From the NCBI GenBank assembly GCA_017631635.1, contig JAGBSX010000039.1, forward strand, positions 1-42,967: DNA of 42,967 nt, read 5' to 3'. This DNA is from Clostridia bacterium. GTDB taxonomy: Bacteria > Bacillota > Clostridia > Christensenellales > RUG350. Shown in pieces: positions 26,957 through 40,826 of this stretch (within the stretch, counting starts at the first letter, position 1; each line of letters starts with the position of its first letter). A program made the position numbers and the translations under genes. The notes below the pieces were generated by a model. That model did no database searches. It saw only the letters and a program-made list of their open reading frames with translations, and had not been told where the DNA came from.

Positions 26957-29338
26957 TTAACTTCTACGTTTTTTGACGACTATGTACGTTATCGTAGTCG
27001 CTAGTGATAACGCCAATATTATCAGGACTGCTATGAGTTGAGGAGTAGTCACACTAGAGGTAGAGAGATTGGCCGTCAGCACGTATCCTACCACCTTTAA
27101 GCCATCTATTTCTACGCATATTTTGGTGTATTGTTCACTAGTTTTGATTAGTTCGTACGTTAGCACTTGAGTACCGTCCACCACACTTGCGAGTACTTGC
27201 GAATTTTGGGTAGGTAGTAGATATATATCCACGCTACCACCTAGGCTTTGAGCAGATATCTTCGCGTCGTATCTAGCCGTTTGTTGAGTATTGTTTAGAG
27301 GGAGTAGAGTGCCACTTGATTTGATATAATAAGTATTGTCCATATATGATATACTTATCCATTTGCCATCGTCGTATCCATAAGCGCCACCATTACACTT
27401 GACTTGGGTATTTCTAGGTAGGGTAGTGATTAGATAATCGTTATTTTCTATAGGATATTTGTACAATTTGGTGTTACCCCAACTAGTCACGGCATCTATC
27501 ATACTAGGAGCAGTATCATTGATAGAGGCGAGCATATCGGTCTTGGCAAATACGCATTTGTCCCCGTAGAGTATATAACTAAATCCATCGTAGAGTGTAT
27601 CTTCGCTCAATACTATTACTTTGGTGTCGGCATTGACTAGTCTAATGCTTTCGCTATTGCTAGGATTTGTGTACACGTATGTATTAGCCTGTAGATTTTT
27701 GATTAGAAGAGGGGAGGATAGAGGCGTTTTGTCATTTAGGTCCACCTCAGGTGTAGTCGGGTCTAATATATCTTCTTCGGTGGCTATATCCATATCCTCG
27801 TCTACCACTCTTATCAAACTATGGCTATTAGTTGATATACATAGTATATCACCACCTTGTATACAGGTAGCGTCATAGGTTGCGTTTGGTATAGTAGCAT
27901 TGATATTATATATACCTTTTACTTCATATCCATTTTGAGTTTTGGTGAGTTTTGTGATAGTATTTGATGTTGTTTTGCGCAGCAGATAAATATTGCCTAG
28001 ACTATCTATATCCATATCGATTATCTCGCCATATATATCTGTATCCTCTAGCGTTATGCTGTCTAGTATAGTGGTAGAGTTTAGGTATCTATATACGGTA
28101 TCTTCGGTGGATACGTATAGCGTATATCCTATCGGTGAAAAGGCTATGTTTTTAGCCCCTTCTACCATAGCGTACGTAGTCAAAACTCCGTCGTTTACAG
28201 ACCATATAGTATCGTTTGAGAGTGCGTATAGCGAGCCACCACCATTTACGGCGATAGATATGATATCTACGTCCTCTATGGAGTATACCTCTCTACCACT
28301 AGGAGATATACGATATATACTGCTACCGTCGGTAGAATATATCACGTCGTTATGAGACACCACGCTAATAGGTGAGGATATAGATATCTCTCCTATTATA
28401 TCCTCGTCGCTAGATAGATTCAATATACGATTGTTTGCACTATCTGCTACGTATATAGTGTCGTTAGCGCAATAGATATCTTTTGGAGAGTTCAATCTAT
28501 CTATTGATTGTCCGTGGCTACCTATCGTATCGCATAGTGTCAGAGTAGGGTAGATGGTATAGGAGTATACCATATGATTTTGGTTGTCTATTAGATACAA
28601 TTTTTCAGTAATAGGATTGTAGGATATACTATTAGTAGTAGTGATTTGGTAAGGTAGAGTGTACGTTAGCACGCTATCATCTGCCATAGAGTATATAGTG
28701 AGGGAGTGCTCCTCTACCATATACGCCAAATCTCCCACTATATCAATACAAGTGGAGTTGTGGTCAAGGAGTTTGTCTTTGTCCCCAGATGATAAGTCGC
28801 AGGTATAAGTACCGTCTATGGTAGTTAGGTACAATATATCCCCTACCATATCTAGCGAAGTCGCCTCAGCCAATTTGGAGTAGGTGAGTATAGTGCTATG
28901 TGTGCCAAAATCATACAATTTTGAGCCAGCCGAATAGTATAGATTGTCTCCGTCGCTGACTAGTATCACGTCGCAATTAGGTAGAGAAGTACTCTGGTAT
29001 GAGTAGTCTAGCATTGACAATATACCTACTAGGGTGTCGCTATCTCCAGATTGATACGATATGTAGAGATTGTCTCCCACGATAGCGTAGGAGGTAGGAT
29101 GACTCTCTAGTGGGTGCGAATATATGGATTTGTCCTTGACGAGATGTATGTCATTGTCATCTACTATCACGCACACCTCACCACTAGATATGACGGCAGT
29201 AGGATTAGATAGGGGGATATAATATCCATTTGGCAATATCGTAGTAGACGTGCTTGCAAAACTGACGAGACCTATGCTCGCCATCATAATCAATGCTATA
29301 GATAATGCTAATACAAAATTTTTGTAAAAATTTAACAT
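26957..29338 (-). CDS. Exported beta-propeller protein with SH3-like region and C-terminal anchor
   Basis: A 793-residue protein. It has an N-terminal signal sequence (hydrophobic to about residue 29), then many ~40-residue beta repeats of propeller type. One (SPKDIYCANDTIYVADSANN) is a clear NHL repeat and others have the pattern D-x-YxS-x-GS. After a Pro/Asp linker near 540 come two or three SH3b-like segments (KISAQSLGGSVDIYLLP, then SYILYGDKCVF). It ends in a membrane helix and basic KKRRS, so it is displayed on the outside of the membrane. The binding partner is unknown. An AGGTG site precedes the ATG. Confidence 0.8.
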   Translation of the reverse strand: MLNFYKNFVLALSIALIMMASIGLVSFASTSTTILPNGYYIPLSNPTAVISSGEVCVIVDDNDIHLVKDKSIYSHPLESHPTSYAIVGDNLYISYQSGDSDTLVGILSMLDYSYQSTSLPNCDVILVSDGDNLYYSAGSKLYDFGTHSTILTYSKLAEATSLDMVGDILYLTTIDGTYTCDLSSGDKDKLLDHNSTCIDIVGDLAYMVEEHSLTIYSMADDSVLTYTLPYQITTTNSISYNPITEKLYLIDNQNHMVYSYTIYPTLTLCDTIGSHGQSIDRLNSPKDIYCANDTIYVADSANNRILNLSSDEDIIGEISISSPISVVSHNDVIYSTDGSSIYRISPSGREVYSIEDVDIISIAVNGGGSLYALSNDTIWSVNDGVLTTYAMVEGAKNIAFSPIGYTLYVSTEDTVYRYLNSTTILDSITLEDTDIYGEIIDMDIDSLGNIYLLRKTTSNTITKLTKTQNGYEVKGIYNINATIPNATYDATCIQGGDILCISTNSHSLIRVVDEDMDIATEEDILDPTTPEVDLNDKTPLSSPLLIKNLQANTYVYTNPSNSESIRLVNADTKVIVLSEDTLYDGFSYILYGDKCVFAKTDMLASINDTAPSMIDAVTSWGNTKLYKYPIENNDYLITTLPRNTQVKCNGGAYGYDDGKWISISYMDNTYYIKSSGTLLPLNNTQQTARYDAKISAQSLGGSVDIYLLPTQNSQVLASVVDGTQVLTYELIKTSEQYTKICVEIDGLKVVGYVLTANLSTSSVTTPQLIAVLIILALSLATTITYIVVKKRRS

Positions 29339-29396: not shown

Positions 29397-29425
29397 TTGA
29401 CAAAAGAGCAAAAAAGAATTAAAAT
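29397..29425 (+). promoter_or_regulatory. Promoter of the coiled-coil/ABC pair
   Basis: TTGACA (29397-29402), 17 bp, TAAAAT (29420-29425), 41 bp before the ATG. Confidence 0.8.
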
Positions 29426-29465: not shown

Positions 29466-31070
29466 ATGCAGATACCAGTCAAGACTACCGTTCGCAAAAA
29501 AACTGCCAAGATAGTCCCTACTTCGCCCAAGCGTGACAAGTGTGTAGTATCAGGACATATAGACGACGTACCTCTATGGTGGAAGGTGGCAGACGTCCAC
29601 AAGATGACCTTCAATCAACTCCGTAGAGAAAAGGGAAGTTTAGAGAGGGAGGTAGTAGGAGTAGACAAGCGTAGACGTCAGGCAGAGAAGGATTACGTTA
29701 AGTACAACGAATTGTTGCTCCGAGAGAGAGATACCAGATTTGTCGAACTAAATGCGATAGAGGAGAATATAGAACTAATCAAGCAGGAGTCTACCTTGCG
29801 TATGCAAGCAGTAGAGAGAGAGCAAGAGATAGAACTCATCAACGTCGAGAGAGATAGCCTAGAGAGGATAGAGGCAGAGAAGGTAGAGCACGCCAAGAGA
29901 CTGCGAGAGATTACCATAGAGGAGACACAGCGCGCCGAAGATGAGCATAGAGATAGATTGTCTGCTTTGAGAGAGGACAAACTAGAGGCCATCAGAGTAG
30001 CCGAGCAGACTGAATTGGACCTTATGCGTGCTAGAGAAGAGACCTCACGTATAGAGGCTCAACGTATAGCCACTCAGGACCAACTTGCCCTAGAGAGAGC
30101 AGAGATTAGAGAACGCAAGGCTCAAGAGAAGATAGCCGAGAAGAAACTCAAGCAAATAGAAGAAGAAAAGGTTAGACAACGCGAAGAACAAGCCGAGATA
30201 GATAGACTAGAGCAAAGTCGCGTGAACTTGCGTAAAAAAGAAGAAGAACGTCAACGCTATCTCAACCAATCTCTAGAGGAGAAGAAGAAGAGAGAAAAAG
30301 AGGACGAGGAGAGAGCCAAGCAGAGAGAGTCTATGGAGAAGAAACGAATCCAGAGACTCAAGCGTCGTTATCGTATTCGAGACGTGGTATTCAATCCTTA
30401 TCCACTATCACCAGATGATAATACTTCAAAATGCGCCCTTCAACTTCGAGACTTGTCTCTACTCGTACGCAAAGGAGAGACTAGTGTCATAGAGGGAGTA
30501 GACCTAGACGTCATAGCAGGAGAGACTACTATCGTAGATAGATATACCCTAGCCGAGGCAGACGTGATTATCAGCATGATACAGCGAAATTTTTCCTCTA
30601 GATATATCCTCAAAGGTGGAGAAATATTCCTGCTAGGAGAGGCTATGCTAGGTATCAAGGCGAGAGAGCATTTTGTCAAGACAAATAGAGAGATTAGCGT
30701 AGTACCTAGCGAATTGATTAGTGCTGACTATAGAGATATGACGGTGTATAGTTATATCAAGAAGATATGTACCAAGTCAAACGTCTCTAGAGTTAGAGAT
30801 ATATTAGTGAGATTACACCTTACGCATATCGACAAGATTATGCGCAAGAGGATATCTAGATGTACCTATAGCGAGATAGCCAAGATAGCCGTAGTGACTG
30901 CGCTATATAGTGGCAAGAAGGTAGTAGTTCTCAATCAGCCTGAGAGATGCCTAGATGCATTGAGTATACTGACTCTCAGAGATATTATCAAACAATGGAG
31001 AGAGACTAGCGATAGCGCGCTCGTCATATTTGGCTGTAGAGACCAAGAGGGAGGTGTAGCGTATGTCTAA
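29466..31070 (+). CDS. Long coiled coil fused to a degenerate DppD/OppD-like ABC ATPase
   Basis: A 534-residue protein with no membrane helix. Residues ~1-45 are basic, and ~45-300 are a Glu/Arg/Lys-rich heptad coiled coil. From ~325 the fold pattern follows peptide-importer ATPases (LQLRDLSLLVRKGE, then GVDLDVIAGE). The catalytic motifs are lost: no Walker A (VDRYTLAEAD in its place), no Q-loop Gln, signature LSGGQ replaced by CTYSE before IAKIAVVTAL, Walker B VVVLNQPERCLD instead of LIxDEPTxxLD, and no switch His. It should not hydrolyse ATP. GGAGG precedes the ATG. It overlaps the next gene by 8 nt. Confidence 0.75.
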   Translation: MQIPVKTTVRKKTAKIVPTSPKRDKCVVSGHIDDVPLWWKVADVHKMTFNQLRREKGSLEREVVGVDKRRRQAEKDYVKYNELLLRERDTRFVELNAIEENIELIKQESTLRMQAVEREQEIELINVERDSLERIEAEKVEHAKRLREITIEETQRAEDEHRDRLSALREDKLEAIRVAEQTELDLMRAREETSRIEAQRIATQDQLALERAEIRERKAQEKIAEKKLKQIEEEKVRQREEQAEIDRLEQSRVNLRKKEEERQRYLNQSLEEKKKREKEDEERAKQRESMEKKRIQRLKRRYRIRDVVFNPYPLSPDDNTSKCALQLRDLSLLVRKGETSVIEGVDLDVIAGETTIVDRYTLAEADVIISMIQRNFSSRYILKGGEIFLLGEAMLGIKAREHFVKTNREISVVPSELISADYRDMTVYSYIKKICTKSNVSRVRDILVRLHLTHIDKIMRKRISRCTYSEIAKIAVVTALYSGKKVVVLNQPERCLDALSILTLRDIIKQWRETSDSALVIFGCRDQEGGVAYV

Positions 31071-31977
31071 TATATTGACTATATCTATGCCCGTACTCAA
31101 CAATACCGTACGCATTATACTCCGAGAAGGGGAGAGTCTGGGTATCATAGGCGAGAATATGTCTGGCAAGAGTGAGGTATTGCAGAGGATACGATATCAC
31201 AAATTTGGTTTGACTTATAGAGGGGTAGCACCTGCCGATTTTACCAAAGAGGAAGAGGACTTATTTTTGCAAGAGATAGGTTATTCTGCTGCAGATATGT
31301 ATCTCAATCCCAAAGACAAAGTTATCGACGTATTGGGCAGATGTGCAGTAGCCATAGAGGGTATACCTGACGACGTGGCGAAAGTATTTTGTATAATGCC
31401 CACCGAGTATGACCTCAAGGTCAAGGACGTAGACAATATATTGTTGTCAAAACTTACCCTTATAGATACCTTGAGCCATAATTACAAAGTAATTATGATA
31501 GATGATGTATTTGGGTACGACTACACGTTTAAGCGTAGGCTTATACCATTTCTTGACAAGTATCGCCGAGATAGAGGAGTGACTTATCTAATAGCGACTA
31601 CGGATATAGTATTCGCGAGCCAACTTACCGAGTGGACTATGGTGTTATATGCCGATAGATTAGTAGAGTACGCTCAGACCAAGCATTTGATAACTTCTCC
31701 AAATCATCCTTATTCCAAGTGGCTTATCAATTCGACGTATATGGAGGAGGATAGGGAGATACCTACCTTTATTCGTACTGCGTCAGATCCTATCCCCCCA
31801 AAGGAAAAATGTCCATTTAGCACGATATGTCCCTATGCTATCGACAAATGCAAGACTGATTCTCCTGTGTTTGCTAGTTATAACAATACGGACTGGACGG
31901 CTTGTCATCTAGTAAATACCACAGAGCCTCCCGTCAAACGCTCACGCAGGGCTATATCCAAGAAAAACAAACAATAA
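31063..31977 (+). CDS. Degenerate DppF/OppF-like ABC ATPase, nucleotide site partly kept
   Basis: A 304-residue protein. Walker A is intact (GENMSGKS), and Walker B is IMIDDVFG with Asp where the catalytic Glu should be. The Q-loop Gln is gone (SAADMYLNP against FQDPY.SLNP), no LSGGQ is found, and the switch His is replaced (ATTD for SHD). The C-terminus is a clear peptide-importer ATPase tail: RLVEYAQTKHLITSPNHPYS, then CPFSTICPYAIDKC and ACHL. It probably binds but does not efficiently hydrolyse ATP. No permease or binding protein is nearby. GGGAGG precedes the ATG, and it likely pairs with the upstream coiled-coil protein. Confidence 0.78.
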   Translation: MSNILTISMPVLNNTVRIILREGESLGIIGENMSGKSEVLQRIRYHKFGLTYRGVAPADFTKEEEDLFLQEIGYSAADMYLNPKDKVIDVLGRCAVAIEGIPDDVAKVFCIMPTEYDLKVKDVDNILLSKLTLIDTLSHNYKVIMIDDVFGYDYTFKRRLIPFLDKYRRDRGVTYLIATTDIVFASQLTEWTMVLYADRLVEYAQTKHLITSPNHPYSKWLINSTYMEEDREIPTFIRTASDPIPPKEKCPFSTICPYAIDKCKTDSPVFASYNNTDWTACHLVNTTEPPVKRSRRAISKKNKQ

Positions 31978-31981
31978 AAAT

Positions 31982-32020
31982 AAATGCGCCACAAATCGTA
32001 ATTGTGGCGCATTTTATTTT
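31982..32020. terminator. Bidirectional terminator before the rqcH end
   Basis: AAATGCGCCACAA (31982-31994) with TTGTGGCGCATTT (32002-32014), a 13-bp stem and 7-nt loop. A/T flanks serve both convergent genes. Confidence 0.93.
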
Positions 32021-37189: not shown

Positions 37190-37243
37190 ATTAAAGTATA
37201 CTAATACTATAATGCATCTTTGTATATTTACGGAGGTAATTTG

Positions 37244-38713
37244 ATGAAGAACAAGATAATCAAGACTGTGATAGTTGCAGTACTTGTAGTAGCAGTTGTA
37301 TTTGGACTATGTGTGTTTGCAGAATCCTGCAACGTATCCTTGTACTCTGCACCACTTGCTGTGCGTGACGAATCTGCTATCAAGGCTGCCAAACTAGAGG
37401 TAGTCAAGGACGAGATATGGAAGGCTTATGACACCAACAAGATGCCTGCCCAAGCTGTGGTAGATTTCGAGGCTTATATGGTCGAAACTATGAGAGCTGA
37501 CATAGAGAACCTTGAGGACGTTAGGAACAACTACGTTAATGCCGTGTTATACAACACTCCTAACAAGAAGTCCTTTATAGAAAACGCACTAAAGGGAAGC
37601 CGTACAGGTGCTGGATACAAGATGCTTACTTTTGATATCACCAAGTTTGAGAGTATACTCAGTACTTTTGCTACTCTCAATTTTACCGAGGTCAAAGTGC
37701 ACTCACGTAATTCCTTGACCATAGCCAAGTATGCTATTCAGGCCAAGTATACCGTACAGTACTTTGGCGAAGCGGCTGTATCTTATGACAACGTCTTGTA
37801 CATCAAGTTGCTAGGTAACGTAGCGTACTATGATGAGAAGGTAATCTTCTACGATACCACCTATTTTGAGGCACATAGAGGAGATCCAGAGGACGGTACT
37901 ATGAAGGGTTGGGATATTGATGCCAACGGCGATAGATATCCTGTATCCCAAAAGGACCGTGACTCATTTGCCAAGCAGTTGGTAAAGTACAACGTATACA
38001 AACTTATCATCAAAGAAGGTTATGAATCAAAAGCCATATCATTGTACGATATGTCTAGTGCAGCAGTATCCGTACTCAGTTCTGATGAGACGAACCCAGT
38101 CGCATTAGTAGCAGAGAAGTTGGCTCGCATCCAAGTATACCAGAGTGTAGTAGCCTACTTGCAATATCTACAAGATATAGAGGGCAAGACTGATGAAGAG
38201 AAAGAAAATATCAAAGTCCCAAAACCTATCCCTACTGAGGACCAGATTGCTGATTATCATCCAGAGACAGGTACTGACCTAGACGTAATAGAGAGAGATA
38301 TCCTAGATGCTATATTCGGTGAGGCAAATGGCAATGGTTGGAAACTAACTGATGCTGATGATGGTACAGTTAAGTCTGCATTGGCAAAGTATGCTACCAT
38401 CGGCAATATCAGAACTAGAGATACCGAGATATATGCTTACAATAGCCTCAACAAACTCAACTACGCTATCAAGGTCACCTACAACATAGAGTACAAGGAT
38501 GCTAACGGTACAGCGCTAGGCGAGAACAAAGTAGAGAAGATACTAGTGATGACTCTAGAGGACAACCTACTCAGAGCACAAAACGTATCTATGTGGGACG
38601 TAGCAGACTTCGACACCTACAAGGGTACTACCTTTGATGGTACTGGCGAAGATATCTATGCTCCTATCAGAGCATTTGACAAGGATGCGACTTACGTATT
38701 CCCCAACAACTAA
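37244..38713 (+). CDS. Exported protein with an internal duplication, function unknown
   Basis: A 489-residue protein starting at ATG 37244 (GGAGG upstream). The N-terminus is KNKIIKTVIV plus a hydrophobic stretch to about residue 27 containing Cys; no clean lipobox is seen, so it is a signal peptide or anchor. Two similar blocks follow. Block one (about 130-210) has FATLNFTEVKVHSRNSLTIA then KYTVQY and ends YFEAHRG. Block two (about 375-460) has YATIGNIRTRDTEIYAYNSL then TYNIEY and ends FDTYKG. Family unknown. The strong promoter suggests an abundant envelope protein. Confidence 0.75.
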   Translation: MKNKIIKTVIVAVLVVAVVFGLCVFAESCNVSLYSAPLAVRDESAIKAAKLEVVKDEIWKAYDTNKMPAQAVVDFEAYMVETMRADIENLEDVRNNYVNAVLYNTPNKKSFIENALKGSRTGAGYKMLTFDITKFESILSTFATLNFTEVKVHSRNSLTIAKYAIQAKYTVQYFGEAAVSYDNVLYIKLLGNVAYYDEKVIFYDTTYFEAHRGDPEDGTMKGWDIDANGDRYPVSQKDRDSFAKQLVKYNVYKLIIKEGYESKAISLYDMSSAAVSVLSSDETNPVALVAEKLARIQVYQSVVAYLQYLQDIEGKTDEEKENIKVPKPIPTEDQIADYHPETGTDLDVIERDILDAIFGEANGNGWKLTDADDGTVKSALAKYATIGNIRTRDTEIYAYNSLNKLNYAIKVTYNIEYKDANGTALGENKVEKILVMTLEDNLLRAQNVSMWDVADFDTYKGTTFDGTGEDIYAPIRAFDKDATYVFPNN

Positions 38714-39881: not shown

Positions 39882-40826
39882 TTAGTCGTCGCGTCTATAT
39901 ATAGTCACGTTTTGATATACCTTGATATTGCGACCTTTTCTAGCGCATTTACTTTGACAATCACGACAATAATTATTTATAGCGCGCTTGACGTCGTATT
40001 CGTTGGTCCAACGGCTATTGTAAGTCATACTGCCGGATATAGTCACGCTATCGCCATCTGCGCTAATGTATAGATTATCTTCTGTACCGAGCGCCCATAG
40101 GGGTTTGTTGAGTTTGAATATTTCACTCACTTCGTAGTCGTCTATAGCCTCGCCACCACTACTGCTATCGCTGTCATAAGAGGATGAATAACCACTACTA
40201 TATCCACCACTATAATCGTCACTAGACTTCGTTTGAGCATATAGAGCAGTACCTTCTTTGACACGGTGAATTATTATGACTGCTAGAGCCACAGCGCCTA
40301 TAGCCAAGGTGATTAGGGATAGAGTACCTATGTTTTCTATCATAGGGTATAGTATATTGACTAGAGCAATACTACCTATCATAGGACCTACTGTGTACCA
40401 AAAGCATAGATAATTTTTGTCCCAAGCCCTAGCACAATTTAGGTACAGTAGCATACAAGTCACGCATATACTAGGGAACATTATGAAATCGGTCGCTTGA
40501 TAGAAACTAAAGTCGTAGTATCCTTCGTAATTGAGATAATACAATGCAGAGTTTACGTGTAGGTAAGCACTAGGTATTATAGCGAGTGCCAGACCTGCCA
40601 CTAGTAGTACTAGTCTCAAGATATATTTTTCACTCTCTTGCATAAAATCTAGCGCCAATACTATAGGTGCTATGGCGAGACCATAGCAAATAGACGCCCT
40701 AGATATCTCCTCTTCGTATATAGAAGATTCGGCTAGCATACTAGGTGCTACACTCATCAATATTATAGCGATTATGCCATAAAAGATAATTCTCAAAGTT
40801 TTACTTTCAAAGTAATAAGATAACAT
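39882..40826 (-). CDS. Multi-pass membrane protein with a Ser/Gly/Tyr-rich linker and soluble tail
   Basis: A 314-residue protein of unknown family. It has about six hydrophobic segments (roughly 11-31, 45-60, 68-87, 115-130, 142-160 and 165-185). A low-complexity linker of repeated S/G/Y/D follows (about 205-225, GGYSSGYSSSYDSD). It ends in a ~85-residue domain with LWALGTEDNLYISADGDSV and four cysteines (CRDCQSKC region), then a basic end. It lies 45 bp after the ATP-grasp gene on the same strand and is probably co-transcribed. No clear Shine-Dalgarno was seen before ATG 40826 (GGAGG lies 5 nt off in the reverse complement of CCTCC, 40831-40835). Confidence 0.75.
   Translation of the reverse strand: MLSYYFESKTLRIIFYGIIAIILMSVAPSMLAESSIYEEEISRASICYGLAIAPIVLALDFMQESEKYILRLVLLVAGLALAIIPSAYLHVNSALYYLNYEGYYDFSFYQATDFIMFPSICVTCMLLYLNCARAWDKNYLCFWYTVGPMIGSIALVNILYPMIENIGTLSLITLAIGAVALAVIIIHRVKEGTALYAQTKSSDDYSGGYSSGYSSSYDSDSSSGGEAIDDYEVSEIFKLNKPLWALGTEDNLYISADGDSVTISGSMTYNSRWTNEYDVKRAINNYCRDCQSKCARKGRNIKVYQNVTIYRRDD

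Follow-up and report, generated by a model that had tools for sequence, protein, structure and literature searches.

The ATPase subunits of peptide importers, OppD/DppD and OppF/DppF (PF08352), work with permeases and a binding protein and carry a full set of ATPase motifs. Two other groups of ABC proteins also have to be considered here. TAP and CFTR are heterodimers in which one ATP site is degenerate, and in SMC, Rad50 and RecN a single ABC head is split into its N- and C-lobes by an inserted coiled coil. In this article we describe a pair of genes, A and B, from a 42,967-nucleotide stretch of clostridial DNA (the window), and compare it with these systems. B aligns with OppF over nearly its full length and has the same C-terminal four-cysteine tail, and the ABC domain of A is of the same general type. 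Unlike the importers, however, the pair has no permease, no binding protein and no full motif set, and A is without the cysteine tail and has instead a WW motif and a long helix. With TAP and CFTR the pair shares an asymmetric loss of motifs between its halves, but one site remains active there, whereas neither composite site is complete in A-B. The ABC fold and the long helical region are reminiscent of SMC, Rad50 and RecN, but the inserted coil, the intact motifs and the DNA function are theirs, and A, having none of these, does not belong among them.

In our opinion the closest functional precedent, by analogy, for what may be a platform of dead ABC domains is PhnK-PhnL of the Escherichia coli C-P lyase. 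These importer-like ABC proteins are found, without permeases, in a soluble complex of enzymes on which they dock, and they bind and hydrolyse ATP (PMC9947105). PhnK is also the best fold match (Foldseek) to our model of B, which is itself poor. The differences are that PhnK and PhnL hydrolyse ATP and have no long helix, whereas A-B lacks the canonical ATPase residues. No C-P lyase genes were found near the pair, among the flanking genes in the window and in its relative G001 (see below).

It had been predicted that no system of this form is described. Indeed, searches of Pfam, PADLOC and PHROGs (the last with the helix-only form) turned up no family that fits, nor did NCBIfam above the cut-off, and among the papers searched none described a system that combines a dead ABC domain with a coiled coil.

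The overlapping gene pair and its surroundings

The unit consists of the following features.

29397..29425, + strand: promoter-like TTGACA-17-TAAAAT, ending 40 bp 5' of A (11 of 12 consensus positions; a consensus match only)
29466..31070, + strand: gene A, 534 aa, with a WW motif, a long charged helix and a dead OppD/F-type ABC domain (from the open reading frame, the motif table and relatives)
31063..31977, + strand: gene B, 304 aa, a catalytically incomplete OppF-type ABC protein (PF08352 at 4.6e-10, OppF profile, tree)
31982..32014, no strand: bidirectional terminator-like hairpin, 5 bp 3' of B (13-bp stem, T-rich tails on both strands)

The two overlapping genes proposed at 29466-31977 are present as open reading frames of the claimed extent, and their frames share 8 bp. 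A and B are most likely co-translated. The promoter-like site and the terminator-like hairpin bracket exactly A and B, and the hairpin is common to B and to the convergent gene for RqcH. Since the flanking genes point either away from the pair (the divergent upstream neighbour) or towards it (the downstream RqcH/NFACT gene, which is followed by tig, clpP and clpX), A and B form a self-contained operon.

Several other genes of the window deserve a mention. The divergent neighbour (26957-29338, - strand) shares with A an intergenic region of 127 bp and encodes a protein of 793 aa with an apparent signal peptide and a C-terminal membrane helix; its matches to NHL/propeller domains are weak, and it is probably secreted. 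Near clpX and an EngB-like GTPase gene lie two open reading frames without a Pfam match at 1e-5, one for 497 aa (37220-38713, + strand) and one for 314 aa (39882-40826, - strand). The host is a small-genome bacterium, probably from gut or rumen.

A search for orthologues that keep the two-gene order had been suggested together with the original prediction. Such a pair exists in a second genus of f1, the family to which the window host belongs (G001, contig ONBF01000048.1, 'uncultured Clostridiales bacterium isolate RUG146'), with gene order, overlap and motif losses all kept. The identity to the window is 30% for A and 37-38% for B, and the overlap is 4 bp. The neighbours are different, namely a NadE-like gene upstream and a MazF-like gene downstream, as named from their translations. 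Because the overlap is kept in two genera with unrelated neighbours, the A-B unit is autonomous and persists independently of its context. These are the only two A-B pairs found, both in f1; in a third genus of that family (G002, 84% complete) neither A nor B was found.

Motifs, descent and missing partners

We aligned A and B to 31 intact OppD/OppF proteins from the same order. The features that this comparison concerns are:

30381..31067, + strand: pseudo-ABC domain of A, with no ATPase motif left (models of RLI, MacB and other ABC proteins match weakly; motif table; f24 profile at 1e-18)
31150..31173, + strand: Walker A of B, GENMSGKS, kept (GTANSGKS in the G001 orthologue)
31489..31506, + strand: VIMIDD, the Walker B of B, with Asp in place of the catalytic Glu (IDDVFGxDYxFKRRL is invariant in both B orthologues)
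31810..31905, + strand: four-cysteine [4Fe-4S]-type tail of B, C250, C256, C263 and C281 (spacing 6-7-18 as in DppD; the same in the B of G001)

At the Walker A position of A the alignment has VDRYTLAEAD; the Q-loop position reads VPSELIS, that of the signature CTYSEIAK, that of Walker B VVVLNQPERCLD and that of the switch VIFGC. Every catalytic residue is gone and the LD of the D-loop is the sole survivor, which agrees with the claim that A lacks Walker A, Q-loop, signature, Walker B acid and Glu, and switch His. The companion claim, that B retains just Walker A and a DD Walker B, is likewise correct: GENMSGKS and IDD are kept, while Q-loop, signature and switch His are lost. B is also shortened ahead of Walker A, where the A-loop aromatic usually lies (the OppF alignment begins at residue 14 of B). 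A complete set of ATPase motifs is therefore present in neither protein, A having none and B having Walker A and the DD Walker B. The same losses are common to both B proteins and to all A-type ABC domains that we examined (nine, and a tentative tenth). As A is without all motifs, and B without signature, Q-loop and switch His and with Asp in place of Glu, the likeliest reading of the sequences is that ATP hydrolysis has been lost in both.

Loss of hydrolysis is not the same as loss of binding. With its Walker A intact, B could bind a nucleotide, and the pair is perhaps more than a passive scaffold. One may imagine a switch in which B binds ATP or ADP through Walker A, A-B changes shape without hydrolysis, and the helix reports the state. 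It is in favour of this idea that Walker A and the DD pair are invariant in both B orthologues, which would be unexpected were nucleotide irrelevant. On the other hand, ABC dimers close on ATP by means of the partner's signature, which is lost in A (CTYSE) as well as in B; B is cut before Walker A, at the usual position of the A-loop aromatic; and single-gene relatives of A in family f24 manage without any B. We consider such a switch conceivable but rather unlikely. The term 'nucleotide-responsive', which the original prediction had applied to the pair, is not supported, as Walker A is present in B only and there is no signature in the partner to close on ATP.

In E. coli DppD the [4Fe-4S] ligands are Cys284, 290, 297 and 315, and in that organism the clusters stabilise the complex, which dissociates when a ligand is mutated (PMC12136057). 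The cysteines of the G001 protein (C243/249/256/274) have a spacing of 6-7-18, identical to that of the window B. Judged by this pattern, B possibly carries a [4Fe-4S] cluster. A framework of the DppD/DppF type including the CPF...CP...C tail had been assigned to both genes; for B the tail is real, but A has none, and its sequence ends after the switch region.

PF08352 (the oligo_HPY C-terminal region) is found above its cut-off in B only, at the E-value listed above, which makes B a relative of Opp/Dpp. B matches the OppF profile at 3e-25, versus 5e-17 for OppD, and clusters with OppF with a support of 0.79 in a FastTree tree of ABC regions. These results indicate that B descends from an OppF-type peptide-importer ATPase. 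The A-type ABC domains form one clade in the same tree and appear to come from the same ABC branch as B, their exact parent being uncertain owing to the long branches.

Given that B is clearly of importer-ATPase descent, it may be asked whether A and B are the ATP-binding subunits of a divergent, unrecognised transporter, for peptides or something else, with its permeases elsewhere in the genome. The genome of the window host does have eight PF00528 permeases. However, five of them are components of sugar, spermidine and one further ABC system, as read from translations and neighbours, with their own ATPases or binding proteins adjacent, and the other three are open frames of 226-272 aa, too short for OppB/OppC. 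There is no second OppD/F-type protein in this genome. Genome-wide, no SBP_bac_5 binding protein and no OppC_N domain were detected in the window host or in G001, while the controls were detected. The OppB/C permeases and SBP_bac_5 protein that Opp/Dpp would need are thus missing, and the claim that no permease or binding protein lies nearby turns out to be true in a stronger form than it was made. Canonical ATP hydrolysis would moreover be impossible at both sites, and the Q-loop, which couples to the permease, is lost in A and B. In our opinion a divergent transporter is very unlikely indeed. The absent partners and the conserved motif losses support the broader claim that A-B is a retained ABC-derived pair with a long helix and not a transporter.

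The helix of A, its relatives and selection

The N-terminal half of A has two features.

29571..29582, + strand: PLWW motif, residues 36-39 of A (near the N-terminus of A-type proteins; last W invariant in 12 of 12)
29583..30380, + strand: long charged helical segment, residues ~40-305 of A, possible coiled coil (AF2 helices; 51% charged; no proline)

All 12 members, from families f1 and f24, have an N-terminal motif of the form P[LMFH].W or LLWW. Behind PLWW, the helix of ~265 residues makes up the N-terminal half of A; AF2, with two sequences as input, predicts helices at residues 37-116, 125-258 and 262-301. The pLDDT is ~70-80 over much of the helix and poor elsewhere, and the means of the two AlphaFold models (41.7 and 55.3) are poor. 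We made no claims about the fold from these models, which are too weak and gave generic ABC matches only in Foldseek. The heptad contrast of the window A is weak (local z 1.9; p 0.64 in the global test), and z is 2.1-4.3 in f24 relatives that have the ABC half. Hence the 250-residue charged coiled coil said to be fused in front stands as a long charged helix, but not firmly as a coil on the heptad pattern. From the sequence, a coiled coil is likely; both a coiled coil and a charged single helix fit the segment.

An ABC head combined with a long helix invites comparison with DNA clamps of the SMC or RecN kind, and the original prediction had indeed mentioned an SMC-like clamp. This part is not supported, as the helix is N-terminal and not between ABC lobes, and neither protein retains a signature motif. 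The helix of A lies wholly in front of a contiguous, motif-less ABC domain, and we regard a clamp acting on DNA as extremely improbable.

A profile made from the two A proteins led to distant single-gene members in family f24 of the same order, and later searches added G090, G324, G398, G400 and G108. Independent profiles of f1 and f24 match each other with E 1e-18, versus 9e-5 for f1 against intact OppD. The f24 ABC domains are likewise dead according to the motif table, and B-type genes were not found in the f24 genomes tested, B having been found in f1 only. If the family is defined by a WW motif followed by ~150-265 helical residues, it has 12 members, and among 396 genomes of the order the profile of this module finds members in f1 and f24 only. 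Intact orthologues next to permeases would have spoken for a decaying transporter; with the N-terminal profile, no version with intact motifs was found among these 396 genomes. A search at class level gave, beyond the window itself, generic ABC matches only, and scans of viral contigs gave no relative. In the f24 genus g46 the protein is ~205 aa or shorter and consists of the WW motif and the helix, with no ABC domain. Across the wider family, as far as sequences tell, the WW motif and helix persist and the ABC half is dispensable.

A tentative relative of the A family is seen in two f18 genomes, where a dead ABC gene has a separate ORF of ~60 residues upstream, with a DDVPFAW motif. This conserved ~60-codon ORF (L044 ~2290-2500, - strand, and the matching stretch of L104) ends in ...DDVPFAWRHIVLVDRHSHAGRVLAKIKRG...GPLERT before the dead OppD/F-like gene; its motif is like the WW motif and loosely also like the SSB-type DDDIPF tail. 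The TAG stops that precede the pseudo-ABC gene of f18 at first hinted at recoding, an idea we dismissed because the small ORF of G086 ends at the same stop, which is a real one. Candidate intermediates from other families of the order (L003, L005, L007, L010, L012) turned out to be ordinary intact DppD/DppF pairs.

Two observations concern the neighbours of f24 members. In three g46 genomes (L138:7429-16000, L139:1674-9724, L137:28-7996) the ABC-less protein is encoded just downstream of a phage-like head module with a portal (phrog_156, 5e-37), a major head protein (phrog_14242, 1e-39), and scaffold-like and DUF7934 proteins; this is possibly a shared prophage or a domesticated capsid locus. 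In six f24 genomes (L102:9658-13332; L100, L103, L134, L135, L136) a purple-acid-phosphatase-like secreted protein of ~1230 aa is encoded directly 3' of A. We rejected it as a partner of A, because it is absent from f1 and lies elsewhere in g46.

One could suppose that A-B is a decaying, non-functional relic of a lost Opp transporter, given that the catalytic motifs have disappeared along with every Opp partner, that the ABC half is lost in g46 and that the sequences diverge fast. However, between the window and G001 synonymous sites are saturated (pS is 0.86-0.87, so that no ratio is derivable), and yet the frames are intact over 524-534 codons of A and 278-304 of B, the two genera have the same gene order, and pN is well below pS at 0.45-0.49. 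Where dN/dS is measurable, it is far from the value near 1 that had been named as the sign of neutral decay: 0.12 for the pair of f18 genes (the tentative relative), and 0.18 and 0.30 for two sub-regions of f24 pairs. In the other pairs synonymous sites are saturated (pS 0.76-0.95, pN 0.37-0.52). The four Fe-S-type cysteines and the DDVFGxDY block are invariant, and the gain of a 265-residue helix is not what one expects of a transporter remnant. Based on the substitution patterns, the open frames and pN below pS, free neutral decay is rejected, and A-B is maintained by selection. We find it very unlikely that the pair is a relic without function.

A possible scaffold

Our preferred reading, to which we give a probability of roughly 0.55, is that A-B is a heterodimeric, non-transporting pseudo-ABC scaffold, of which the WW motif and helix of A would be the functional end. 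A and B would pair as a heterodimer, with the dead ABC fold as the dimerisation platform and with the possible [4Fe-4S] cluster of B stabilising the fold. The long charged helix would keep the WW motif at a distance from this platform, and the motif would dock on some partner, which would give the pair its scaffold role.

A wider proposal is more tentative. This would be a new scaffold family, in which a peptide-importer ATPase was fused to a WW docking motif with a charged helix and was then disarmed; the lineage of the window would have added an Fe-S pseudo-ATPase as an obligate partner, and the dead heterodimer may serve as a structural or redox-sensing part of a machine.

ATP hydrolysis is what defines ABC ATPases, and a conserved pair that lacks it at both sites is a rare case of a pseudoenzyme, one that combines a likely Fe-S site with a new motif-plus-helix module. 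Related genera present graded stages, namely a two-gene pair, a single gene, and a form in which the ABC half is lost, and these stages make the remaining use of a dead ABC fold directly testable.
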